Assembly (NCBI GenBank): GCA_002838205.1
Contig: CP017950.1
Coordinates: 1,804,858-1,868,857, forward strand
Origin: Tenericutes bacterium MZ-XQ
GTDB taxonomy: Bacteria > Bacillota_I > Bacilli_A > Acholeplasmatales > Acholeplasmataceae
Length of the DNA stretch: 64,000 bases
Direction: 5' to 3'
Positions 11,439-16,215 of the stretch are shown here, one piece after another (positions within the stretch are counted from its first letter, which is position 1; each line of letters opens with the position of its first letter). The notes beneath the pieces are model-generated. The model did no database searches and was not told the DNA's origin. It saw only the letters and a program-made list of their open reading frames with translations. Made by a program: the position numbers and the translations under genes.

Positions 11439-11478
11439 AACAAAAAACAAGGCACTATGATTACATAGTGACTTGTGT
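11439..11478 (-). terminator. Intrinsic terminator after the 33-codon gene
   Basis: On the minus strand ACAAGTCACTATG pairs with CATAGTGCCTTGT (one mismatch) around a TAAT loop, followed by TTTTTTG. It ends the small-ORF transcript. Confidence 0.85.
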
Positions 11479-11514: not shown

Positions 11515-11616
11515 TTATTTTTTGCCTGCAGGTTTAACTGGTTGTGCTGGTTTTTGAGCTGGTTTTGTAAAACTTGGTTTAGCTTGAACTTTTGGAGCTG
11601 GTTTTTGGTTAGCCAT
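11515..11616 (-). CDS. 33-residue Pro/Ala/Lys/Gln-rich peptide
   Basis: A short gene of 33 codons plus TAA. The peptide is strongly basic and repetitive, built on KPA/QKPA units (for example KPAQKPAQPVKPAGKK at its end), and contains no cysteine or hydrophobic stretch. AGGTAGGTG lies about 8 bases before the ATG. A consensus-like promoter (TTGCTT, 17 bp, TATGAT) lies about 170 bases upstream and a strong terminator follows, so it is a complete unit. The composition recalls the unstructured basic tails of ribosomal or nucleoid proteins, but it may be a free RNA/DNA-binding peptide. Function unknown. Confidence 0.65.
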   Translation of the reverse strand: MANQKPAPKVQAKPSFTKPAQKPAQPVKPAGKK

Positions 11617-11757
11617 ATATTTTTCACCTACCTTTCTTATATCATTTCAGACATAACCAAATGGTGTGGTAGGCGATAGAATTTCAATCATTTTTATGTG
11701 ATTTAATTGGATGTCTAGCACCACTTTTTACTCGTGAATGAGAAGTTCTTAAACTTC
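11617..11757 (-). ncRNA. Structured 5' leader with possible pseudoknot upstream of the 33-codon gene
   Basis: On the minus strand the roughly 140-nt leader starts with a hairpin (GAAGTT-taag-AACTTC). AGACATCCAA (complement of 11707-11716) can pair with TTGGTTATGTCT (complement of 11649-11660) with a 2-base bulge. GTGGT (complement of 11720-11724) lies outside that stem and can pair with ACCAC (complement of 11666-11670) inside its loop, giving an H-type pseudoknot. The pairings are read by eye; no covariation is available. Confidence 0.4.
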
Positions 11758-11763
11758 ACCTTA

Positions 11764-11792
11764 ATCATACGCTTAATACAGTTAAAAAGCAA
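11764..11792 (-). promoter_or_regulatory. Promoter of the 33-codon gene
   Basis: On the minus strand: -35 TTGCTT (11787-11792), 17-bp spacer, -10 TATGAT (11764-11769). Transcription would start near 11757. Confidence 0.6.
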
Positions 11793-13729: not shown

Positions 13730-13757
13730 TTGACTTTTTTCAAATTTATAGTATTAT
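13730..13757 (+). promoter_or_regulatory. Promoter of the aspartate/polyamine operon
   Basis: -35 TTGACT (13730-13735), 16-bp spacer, -10 TATTAT (13752-13757). It predicts a start near 13764, just before the leader RNA. Confidence 0.75.
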
Positions 13758-13763
13758 TTTAGT

Positions 13764-13861
13764 GACACACTCATAGAAATATGGGGTCGTCTGAACTATT
13801 AGGGTCTAAAGGATATTATCCAATGACAGCCAGGGTACCTGGTTATCATTGGATTTTTTTT
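13764..13861 (+). promoter_or_regulatory. Unassigned leader RNA with intrinsic terminator (attenuator/riboswitch candidate)
   Basis: Between the promoter and the first gene lies a roughly 55-nt G-rich segment (ATGGGGTCGTCTGAAC, then AGGGTCTAAAGG) directly followed by a full terminator. In the terminator CCAATGA (13820-13826) pairs with TCATTGG (13846-13852), with an inner CCAGG/CCTGG stem and a T8 run. A small hairpin GGATattATCC (13811-13821) shares two bases with the terminator stem, so the two could be alternatives. A terminator placed before the operon means read-through must be controlled. I compared it from memory with purine, lysine, TPP, preQ1, ZTP, fluoride and guanidine-I classes and found no match. 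Confidence 0.7.
13820..13861 (+). terminator. Leader terminator upstream of the polyamine operon
   Basis: Two-part stem (CCAATGA/TCATTGG and CCAGG/CCTGG) followed by eight T, ending about 25 bases before the first start codon. Confidence 0.85.
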
Positions 13862-13886: not shown

Positions 13887-15098
13887 ATGTCAAAAGTATT
13901 AGTTATCGGGTGTGGTGCAGTTGCATCTGTTGCCATCCAAAAAGTTGCTCAAAATCATGAAACCTTTAGTGAAATGATTATCGCAAGCCGTACGGTGAGC
14001 AAATGTCAAGCATTCGCAGAAAAATTAAACAGTGATAAGATCAAAGTCACTGCAGAACAACTTGATGCAGATGTAGTTGAAAACATCGTAAAGATCATCG
14101 AGAAACACAATCCAGATGTAGTGCTTAATGTTGCACTTCCTTATCAAAATATTCCAATCATGGAGGCATGCATCCAAACAAAGACACATTATGTAGATAC
14201 AGCATGTGCTGAAGTTAGAGATCACGCAGGTTTCGAATACGGTACACAATGGGTCTATGATCAAAAATTCAAAGAAGCTGGTGTTATGGCACTTTTAGGT
14301 TCAGGGTTTGATCCAGGTGTAACTTCTGTCTTTTCAATGTATGCGAAAAAACATTATTTCGATACCATCGACACCATTGATATCTTAGATGCAAATGGTG
14401 GTGATCATGGATATCCTTTCGCAACCAACTTCAATCCAGAAATCAACATTCGTGAAATCACACTTCCAGGACGTTACTATGAAAACGGGAAATATGTAAC
14501 CATTCCTGCATTATCTAAAAAACATACATATCCACTAGCAGAAATTGGACCTAGAGATATGTATCTCATGTATCATGAAGAAATCGAATCACTTGCTAGA
14601 TTTATTCCAGAAGTTAAACGCATACGTTTCTACATGAGTTTTGGTGAAAGTTATTTAAGACATTTATTCGCACTTAAAAATGTTGGTATGACAAGTGTTG
14701 AACCGATTAAGTTCCAAGGACAAGAAATCGTACCACTACAGTTCTTACGTGCAGTCTTACCAGATCCTGCATCTCTTGGACCAAGAACAGTTGGTAAAAC
14801 CAACATTGGTTGTATCGTATCTGGACATAAAGACGGTGTTAAGAAAAATTATTATGTCTATAATACATGTGATCATCAAGAAGCTTACAAAGAAACTGGT
14901 TCTCAAGCAGTTGCTTATACAACAGGTGTACCAGCAATGATTGGTACTGCATTAATTGCTAAAGGTATATGGAAAGGTGCTGGTGTTTTCAACATGGAAC
15001 AGTTTGACCCAGATCCATTTATGGATATGTTAAACAAATGGGGCTTACCATGGAAAGAAAACTTTGACCCAGTCATGGTCCCAGACGATGCAAATTAA
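13887..15098 (+). CDS. Carboxynorspermidine/carboxyspermidine dehydrogenase (saccharopine dehydrogenase family)
   Basis: 403 aa. The N-terminal Rossmann motif GCGAVASVA is at residues 8-16. Family-typical blocks follow: NVALPYQNIPIMEACI, ALLGSGFDPGVTSVF and NGGDHGYPFATNFNPEIN, which match carboxynorspermidine dehydrogenase rather than true saccharopine dehydrogenase. The enzyme condenses aspartate-semialdehyde with putrescine or 1,3-diaminopropane using NADPH to give carboxyspermidine or carboxynorspermidine. AGGAGG lies eight bases before the ATG. It is first in a four-gene operon, and the gene that makes aspartate-semialdehyde is last, which supports the assignment strongly. Which diamine is used cannot be told. 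Confidence 0.92.
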   Translation: MSKVLVIGCGAVASVAIQKVAQNHETFSEMIIASRTVSKCQAFAEKLNSDKIKVTAEQLDADVVENIVKIIEKHNPDVVLNVALPYQNIPIMEACIQTKTHYVDTACAEVRDHAGFEYGTQWVYDQKFKEAGVMALLGSGFDPGVTSVFSMYAKKHYFDTIDTIDILDANGGDHGYPFATNFNPEINIREITLPGRYYENGKYVTIPALSKKHTYPLAEIGPRDMYLMYHEEIESLARFIPEVKRIRFYMSFGESYLRHLFALKNVGMTSVEPIKFQGQEIVPLQFLRAVLPDPASLGPRTVGKTNIGCIVSGHKDGVKKNYYVYNTCDHQEAYKETGSQAVAYTTGVPAMIGTALIAKGIWKGAGVFNMEQFDPDPFMDMLNKWGLPWKENFDPVMVPDDAN

Positions 15099-16215
15099 TA
15101 AAAACCTAAAAACACCATATTACTTACTTGATGAAGCAAAGCTTATCAAAAACTTAGAAATTATCAAAACGATTAAAGAACGCTCAGGTGCAAAAGTTTT
15201 GCTTGCACAAAAAGCATTTTCTAACTTCTACTTCTACCCCTTAATGTCAAAATATCTAGATGGGACAACAGCAAGTGGTCTTTATGAAGCAAGATTAGGT
15301 TATGAACATTTCAAAGGTGAAGTTCATGTATATGCACCTGCATATAAAGATGATGATTTTAAAGAGATCTTACGCTATGCAGATCACATCGTCTTTAACT
15401 CAATCACACAATTAAACCGTTATAAAGATTTATCTAAGGCTCATGGTAAAACCATAGGCCTTAGAATCAATCCAGAAATTTCAACACAAGACTCAGCACA
15501 TGAAATGTATGACCCATCATCTCCAACGTCTCGTATGGGCACACGCTTGGTTGATTTTGATCCTGAAATCATCAAAGATATCTCAGGTCTACATTTTCAT
15601 ACCCTTTGTCAACAAAACGCAGATGCACTTGAAATTACCTTAAAGGTTGTTGAAGAAAAGTTTGGCAAATACTTACATGACTTAAAATGGATTAACTTCG
15701 GTGGCGGACATCATTTAACTAGAGATGATTATGATATCGATCTATTAGTCAAACTCATCAAACATTTTAAAGAGACTTACAATTTAGAAGTCTATTTAGA
15801 ACCAGGTGAAGGTGTTGTTTTAAATGCAGGATATTTTGTTGCTCAAGTCTTAGATATCGTTAAAAACGACATGCCAATCGCGATCCTAGATACATCTGCA
15901 ACATGTCACATGCCAGATGTCCTTGAAATGCCATTTATGCCGCCTGTAACAAGCGCAATCAAAAAAAGCCAATACCAATACCGTCTATCAGGATACACCT
16001 GTCTAACGGGCGATAATATCGGTGAATATTACTTCGAAAAACCATTATCTATTGGAGACCATATCATCTTTGAAGATATGGCATTATACACCATGGTTAA
16101 AAACACAACATTTAACGGGATTCCACTCCCATGGATTTACGTAAGAAAAACTGATGGCACAGATGAATTAATTAAATCATTTGGGTATTTAGATTTCAAA
16201 AACAAACTGTCTTGA
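15088..16215 (+). CDS. nspC: Carboxynorspermidine/carboxyspermidine decarboxylase
   Basis: 375 aa from the ATG at 15088, overlapping the previous gene by 11 bases; a TTG at 15064 is an alternative start. It is a PLP-dependent fold-III (alanine-racemase-like) decarboxylase. The Schiff-base lysine is expected in LLAQKAFSNF near residue 38. The motifs LHFHTLCQQ, GGGHHLTRDDYD, LEPGEGVV and FEDMALYTMVKNTTFNGIPLP are typical of NspC. It removes CO2 from carboxy(nor)spermidine to give spermidine or norspermidine. Overlap with the dehydrogenase implies coupled translation. Confidence 0.93.
   Translation: MQINKNLKTPYYLLDEAKLIKNLEIIKTIKERSGAKVLLAQKAFSNFYFYPLMSKYLDGTTASGLYEARLGYEHFKGEVHVYAPAYKDDDFKEILRYADHIVFNSITQLNRYKDLSKAHGKTIGLRINPEISTQDSAHEMYDPSSPTSRMGTRLVDFDPEIIKDISGLHFHTLCQQNADALEITLKVVEEKFGKYLHDLKWINFGGGHHLTRDDYDIDLLVKLIKHFKETYNLEVYLEPGEGVVLNAGYFVAQVLDIVKNDMPIAILDTSATCHMPDVLEMPFMPPVTSAIKKSQYQYRLSGYTCLTGDNIGEYYFEKPLSIGDHIIFEDMALYTMVKNTTFNGIPLPWIYVRKTDGTDELIKSFGYLDFKNKLS

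Follow-up and report, generated by a model that had tools for sequence, protein, structure and literature searches.

Does a short interval in the genome of Tenericutes bacterium MZ-XQ, in which a promoter and a long leader precede a very short open reading frame (ORF), exist for the sake of its RNA, its peptide or both? The window analyzed here is a stretch of 64,000 nucleotides of contig CP017950.1, in which all coordinates below are given, and the interval is flanked by the genes of a GFA-like protein (11389–10988) and a DHFR/RibD-like protein (12375–11851), both named from weak NCBIfam matches. A preliminary description took the interval for a complete gene unit encoding a small basic peptide, and every part that it named is present in a compact one-gene unit at 11792–11448, consisting of promoter, leader, ribosome site, 33-codon ORF and terminator; the strand, which had been left unstated, is the minus strand. 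The features, in the order of transcription, are these.

11787–11792, minus strand: −35 hexamer TTGCTT, read from the sequence, 17 bp upstream of the −10 hexamer
11764–11769, minus strand: −10 hexamer TATGAT, identical in 4 of 4 aligned sequences
11742–11757, minus strand: P1 hairpin GAAGTTTAAGAACTTC at the 5' end of the transcript, folding better than shuffles across 21 sequences
11719–11726, minus strand: 5' strand of the pseudoknot, AAGTGGTG, from covariation
11709–11716, minus strand: AGACATCC, 5' arm of the stem proposed in the preliminary description, weak across 24 sequences and intact in 3 of them
11668–11676, minus strand: anti-ribosome-site strand TCGCCTACC, paired over 9 bp with 11632–11624 in the minimum-energy fold (duplex −16.2 kcal/mol)
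11659–11666, minus strand: 3' strand of the pseudoknot, CACCATTT, 8 bp with 11726–11719, from RNAalifold and covariation
11649–11658, minus strand: GGTTATGTCT, 3' arm of the same proposed stem, intact in 3 of 24
11624–11632, minus strand: ribosome site GGTAGGTGA, whose AGGTG core has a predicted unpaired probability of 0.00
11515–11616, minus strand: ORF for MANQKPAPKVQAKPSFTKPAQKPAQPVKPAGKK, 33 amino acids, net charge +8, stop TAA, from the ORF list and peptide comparison
11448–11474, minus strand: intrinsic terminator AAGTCACTATGTAATCATAGTGCCTTG, stem 11470–11453 followed by a T-rich tail

The promoter, TTGCTT-17-TATGAT, spans 11792–11764 and, because only 8 of its 12 positions match the consensus, is absent from the 14 sites of a consensus scan. 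Its 17-bp spacing, already pointed out in the preliminary description, recurs in relatives: a TTG hexamer at that distance from the −10 element belongs to the best-scoring pair in genomes G027, G080, G069, G335 and G294, and one at the same spacing is visible in the aligned G001 and G014. The 21 leaders compared below were cut at a TATGAT-type hexamer, so the hexamer there is no independent count. With the ATG at 11616, 147 nt from the −10 element, the leader is about 140 nt long, and AGGTG ends 8 nt upstream of the ATG. The 331-nt stretch folds better than 100 of 100 shuffles (z −3.31), and the genome holds one copy of the unit (a single leader match at E ≤ 0.05).

When 61 genomes were searched at the DNA level, 60 had matches at E ≤ 1, of which all but four were short and due to chance. 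The four strong ones (E ≤ 1e-22) are those of the window, of G001 (89% across the unit), of G014 and of G027. With G014 as query, 18 of 88 genomes of the window's family were found, and their leaders, together with about the first five codons, were made into a covariance model, R1. At E ≤ 1e-4 this model matched 21 of the 88 family genomes, each with a correctly placed Lys/Pro/Ala ORF, and a peptide profile, A6, searched at E ≤ 0.01, returned the identical 21 of the 88 and nothing elsewhere. Because most members were already in the profile (18 of the 21, or 19 counting G069, whose peptide equals a profile row), the telling part of this second search is that no peptide was found apart from a leader and none, in the 88 genomes at that threshold, as part or tail of a larger protein. 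Conservation in close relatives, on the absence of which the preliminary description had offered to stand down, is thus found by leader and by peptide alike.

By genus, the 21 members comprise 17 of the 20 genomes of g3, 2 of the 3 of g11 and 2 of the 5 of the genus to which the window belongs. One further genome, G018 (g15), is a probable member only: its leader match has an R1 E-value of 0.028, it encodes the 20-residue peptide MAVKPVAKPAGKPAPKPVKK with leader and terminator, its neighbour cluster c24 is common to G006 and G019, and the A6 profile, though built with G018, gave no match to it at E ≤ 0.01. It is the only one taken as probable among the 12 family genomes that R1 adds to the 21 at E ≤ 0.05 (33 of 88 in all). 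An ORF screen of the weak loci L191–L199 (in G031, G008, G007, G016, G028, G072, G018, G074 and G021), with L191, L192, L193, L195 and L196 also inspected, found a Lys/Pro/Ala ORF at the leader in G018 alone; the weak matches in G087, G036 and G076 and second matches in G008, G070, G081 and G067 lie outside that screen. Two observations from the same family may be recorded here. At L195:1501–1598 in G028 a weak model match precedes a 27-residue ORF, MEKKKKASFLSRLGELFLAVFLQNERN, behind which lies a possible terminator hairpin, and this locus is possibly another micro-protein unit. In G073 a second short Lys/Pro ORF, MPKNYTPKAPAQGLKQAKTIPTSKPAKPVKK, with a ribosome-site-like GAGAGGTG, lies upstream of the accepted member on the same contig (L043:2056, minus strand).

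Searching 160 genomes of the order at E ≤ 0.003 gave matches in 26, the 21 together with G031, G008, G143, G144 and G123, and no member beyond the 21; the matches in G143 (E 2e-5), G144 and G123 lie at or within ordinary genes. The 10 genomes matched at E ≤ 3e-4 in a class sample of 395 comprised four family members, G335, G294 and four with ordinary ribosome sites, which were rejected and of which three presumably precede the gene for ribosomal protein S20. Together with a search of G335's order (90 genomes), in which the matches in G514 and G347 (L252, L253) proved to be ordinary genes, the class sample adds three members of another order, G335, G294 and G511, all of one genus (g126) and found in 3 of its 6 genomes examined. 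From a phylum sample of 392 genomes, 6 matches at E ≤ 5e-5 (three members, two places in f17, L247 and L250, and G313) yielded no newly accepted member. A DNA search of plasmids and phages gave no match and a peptide-core pattern had 0 matches in viral contigs; a genome-wide pattern for the ribosome-site motif, matching at least 119 stretches, was discarded as too loose. The accepted members therefore total 24 (21 of the family and 3 of another order), or 25 counting G018.

The 24 accepted peptides are 15–43 residues long with net charges of +4 to +10, and their stop codon is TAA in 21 and TAG in 3; the window's own has 33 codons and no acidic residue. Many begin with MAxxK or MxxKK, their middles contain variable PAPK/APVQ-like repeats, and all 24 end in KK (KPAGKK in 13, KPVKK in 5, PAPKK in 2, other forms in 4). 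Those of the other order, MENKKTAPKAQPAKPAPKAQPTKPTGKK, MAELKKAPAKPAGKK and MAQTKAAPAKPAPAKPAPAKPAGKK, with 28, 15 and 25 residues in G335, G294 and G511, end in KPTGKK, KPAGKK and KPAGKK respectively, and because the leader model extends no further than roughly the fifth codon, the remainder of these peptides is independent support. Aromatic residues are absent from 16 of 20 peptides, the window's having a single Phe. At E ≤ 0.1 none of 19 peptides (from the 25 members, G018 included) matched Pfam or NCBIfam, nor did the window peptide alone, and PDB chains gave 0 matches at the same threshold. A type I toxin, a small hydrophobic membrane peptide, was considered and rejected on the net charge of +4 to +10 and the Pro/Lys/Ala make-up.

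In five close pairs pooled, nonsynonymous changes affect 10 of 362 sites vs synonymous changes at 14 of 109 (pN/pS 0.21; Fisher p of about 1.4e-4). As far as codon comparison reaches, this shows the peptide to be under purifying selection in the pooled pairs, although the window's own pair, G000/G001, runs the opposite way (3 nonsynonymous changes, 0 synonymous); the peptides of G080 and G069 are identical, with three synonymous differences. The suggestion of the preliminary description that function may lie in the RNA instead of the peptide finds no support here, the pooled ratio, against which the window's own pair runs, being joined by the keeping of frame, charge and terminal KK in all 24 members. 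A broader form of that suggestion, in which a structured regulatory, scaffold or dual-function RNA is the main product and the peptide secondary, may draw on the lack of synonymous excess in the window's own pair and on a transcript structured on both sides of the ORF, with a 5' hairpin and pseudoknot and, in 12 of 20 members though not the window, a covarying 3' hairpin; set against the same selection and conservation, and against the peptide's presence at 21 of 21 family leader matches at E ≤ 1e-4, we consider it unlikely.

The 3' hairpin in question, CTGATTGT...ACAATCAGAC, starts approximately 12–44 nt past the stop codon in 12 of 20 members examined, all of g3 (L228, L229, L225, L226, L231, L234, L240, L230, L232, L233, L241 and L238), and no hairpin of the CTGATTGT type is present in the window. 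Its CT and AGAC ends prove nothing, because the search pattern itself demanded a CT start and an AGAC end. The inner pairs were left free, and 6 of 8 of them have two-sided changes, in 14 cells, a result reached in 0 of 500 shuffles. A terminator-like hairpin can be seen by eye after the ORF in the 3' flanks of relatives. In G001, G014, G027, G335, G294 and G511 the terminator stem is similar to that of the window. The sharing of AAGTCRCTA-type stems by g1, g11 and the distant genus suggests that the entire unit travelled, by descent or by transfer, in one piece. Three loci of a different order, L245, L246 and L251, have a window-like terminator stem, AAGTCGCTA, and L245 has in addition the GGTGCTAGACATCCGATTAA of the window's sister; this likeness across orders suggests either horizontal transfer or a mis-binned contig.

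Within the leader, RNAalifold picked one long-range helix from 18 aligned sequences, AAGTGGTG with CACCATTT in the window, whose strands differ together among relatives (AAATGGTG/CACCATTT, AAATGAT/ATCATTT, AAATCAT/ATGATTT, ACATGGTG/CACCATGT). In these 18 sequences 91% of the helix cells pair, and two-sided changes are seen in 12 cells, every one within the helix (0 of 500 shuffles); in 24 sequences the figures are 85% and 16 two-sided cells (again 0 of 500). The strands of 21 genomes pair with a mean of −7.67 kcal/mol when kept together vs −4.88 when swapped between genomes, a value matched in 0 of 5000 swaps, and the total of helix base pairs in 24 sequences is likewise reached in 0 of 5000. 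Six contiguous base pairs occur in 16 of 24 pseudoknots, against a swapped mean of 10.9 (reached in 24 of 5000), and the pseudoknot is very weak in G030, G014 and G073. Two of five covariation measures fail to beat shuffles: the number of pairs with two-sided change is reached in 63 of 500 shuffles with 18 sequences and 256 of 500 with 24, and the number of further pair types in 358 and 455 of 500 respectively. When the helix is slid by −3, 14 two-sided cells remain vs 16, with 53% of cells paired. Taken at the level of alignment, these results show a conserved and covarying pseudoknot helix in the leader family, one that was selected on the same sequences later used for testing and for which two of the five measures are null.

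The pseudoknot-capable leader of the preliminary description is therefore upheld in substance and amended in detail, the covariation check that it proposed having returned a helix with a shifted partner. Its GTGGT is able to pair with ACCAC (11670–11666), but what the relatives conserve is the adjacent CACCA(TTT) at 11666–11659, which is CACCATTT, and the 0 of 5000 swaps apply to that helix. The stem that the knot had been said to cross, AGACATCC/GGTTATGTCT, does not hold up across the family, being intact only in the window, in the sister genome G001 and in the distant G335; 46.7% of its cells pair in 24 sequences, with a covariation score that is attained by 18 of 500 shuffles. Other local hairpins are more general. 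P1 has a combined z of −5.4 over 21 sequences (exceptions G071, G078 and G082) and P2 one of −8.9, with no advantage over shuffles in G000 (the window), G001, G027 and G081; in most relatives the 5' strand of the pseudoknot sits in the P2 loop, which the window lacks. A candidate competing helix, P4, between the P2 flank and the strand before the pseudoknot (213 of 5000), is suggestive only.

The ribosome site is itself predicted to be paired. In the window TCGCCTACC forms 9 bp with GGTAGGTGA, leaving the core an unpaired probability of 0.00 vs 0.34 in shuffles, and the motif AAAG..AGGTG is invariant in 24 leaders. This helix crosses the pseudoknot helix with 1 nt between them, an H-type geometry of 8 and 9 bp in which the loops of the predicted window knot, from the coordinates, measure 42, 1 and 26 nt. 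Taken together, the 21 leaders expose the site less than their shuffles do (combined z −3.1), although in 4 of them (G071, G073, G075 and G067) it is more accessible than in most shuffles. At least 5 bp of the ribosome-site helix are possible in 22 of 24 sequences, vs a swapped mean of 22.0, and its energy test is modest (55 of 5000); because no covariation was found for this helix, control of initiation by the knot is something that we infer.

A pseudoknot by the ribosome site is the usual plan of translational riboswitches, among them preQ1-II and SAM-II. The present leader resembles these two in that its pseudoknot lies at the ribosome site and plausibly controls initiation, and the covariation-supported helix to be expected of such a riboswitch is found, with the reservations about selection and null measures given above; it differs in that it has no Rfam match above cut-off and no known ligand, and in that its target is a micro-protein. 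A leader of this compact form, conserved across two orders, could be a new class of metabolite riboswitch controlling the peptide gene, yet the gene that it would control belongs to no known pathway, letters beyond the ribosome site and first codons are seldom invariant (14 invariant columns in 178), and known aptamers usually carry an invariant core. No Rfam family was matched at the gathering cut-off by the window leader or by the loci of 14 of the 21 members, and a chance mir-255 match (30.1 bits vs a cut-off of 50), outside the leader, was set aside. We regard a metabolite riboswitch as a doubtful reading. An RNA thermometer or cold-shock-type leader, for which the length of about 140 nt and the hidden ribosome site might speak, is much less probable, the window's site being predicted to stay paired from 4 to 55 °C (unpaired 0.002–0.009, by a nested model with no pseudoknot term, applied to the window alone). 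Structured leaders before a basic product are also familiar from the autoregulation of ribosomal proteins, a likeness that extends to both leader and product here, whereas the present peptide matches no Pfam or NCBIfam family, those of ribosomal proteins included.

Gene order was compared at the loci of 19 relatives (G069 and G081 being left aside), and the downstream gene differs between groups of these loci. What we take to be a NuoE-like gene follows the unit in 8 (in G073 with one ORF between), the unit presumably lies between tuf and tatD in G075, G077 and G079, and in G006, G019 and G018 it lies near a gene that we take to be DUF4256-like; the remaining loci have other neighbours again, and in the window the downstream gene is the GFA-like one. 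Because the neighbours vary, the unit is not the leader of any one downstream gene. That the ORF is a leader peptide attenuating the gene behind it, as the layout of short ORF and terminator might suggest, is for that reason refuted as a general reading, since the downstream gene varies among the 19 loci and the window, and, the ORF having no run of one regulated codon, it is hardly credible in any form.

Elsewhere in the window, at 13754–13842 on the plus strand, a c-di-GMP-I riboswitch (37.1 bits vs a cut-off of 35) lies 44 nt before a gene at 13887–15098 that matches carboxynorspermidine synthase with E 7e-122, below the model cut-off; the next gene, at 15064–16215, is nspC, for carboxynorspermidine decarboxylase, above its cut-off. 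Control of norspermidine synthesis by c-di-GMP would be of interest; at the sister locus, L218, no Rfam family reaches its gathering cut-off.

A close comparison is with the uORFC-13-1 motif of Acholeplasma, which its authors report only upstream of aroF, with attenuation by Phe incorporation suggested (PMC8632094). It too is a structured Acholeplasma RNA with promoter, ribosome site and short ORF (PMC8632094), whereas the present unit has varied neighbours, a Lys/Pro/Ala ORF and a terminator of its own. The gene downstream of the window's unit is GFA-like rather than aroF, and the neighbours in relatives, not all of them named, vary; the run of U coding for Phe given for uORFC-13-1 has no counterpart in the window peptide with its single Phe, nor in the 16 of 20 peptides that lack aromatic residues.

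The reading that we prefer, and to which we give about even credence, is that of a translation-controlling pseudoknot leader joined to an independent gene for a disordered, strongly cationic micro-protein. The 8-bp pseudoknot helix and the predicted 9-bp ribosome-site helix would together form an H-type pseudoknot enclosing the ribosome site, and this knot would keep translation down until opened or rearranged by a signal, for which a small molecule, a protein and the cationic peptide itself are all candidates. Because charge and Lys/Pro/Ala composition are kept while length and repeats vary, the peptide would work within the cell as an unstructured basic chain that binds nucleic acid or some other anionic partner; for nucleic acid in particular, it is the composition that points that way. 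Bacterial histone H1-like proteins have Lys/Pro/Ala tails, which the peptide resembles in its Lys, Pro and Ala composition and in being cationic and probably disordered, while differing from them in being free-standing, at 15–43 residues, and in containing Val and Gln as well. More speculatively, and in our estimation improbably, the leader may found a class of its own among translation-controlling pseudoknot RNAs, one dedicated to a single micro-protein. The knot would then receive feedback from the cationic peptide, or from a balance of anions or polyamines that the peptide serves, and leader and gene would amount to a self-contained circuit of about 300 nt, one that has crossed between two orders of one bacterial class.

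Gene callers and RNA surveys tend to miss units of such size, and a search of the open-access literature found no description of this one. An Rfam or Pfam entry could be built up from the alignments A6 and A8 and the models R1 and R2. What the unit brings to the biology of these bacteria is a conserved and well-bounded pair of a structured RNA and a protein of 15–43 residues, unmatched in Rfam, Pfam, NCBIfam and PDB; a natural Lys/Pro/Ala peptide that stands free and has retained its composition, charge and termini; and a short, testable system for the control of a micro-protein by its leader.
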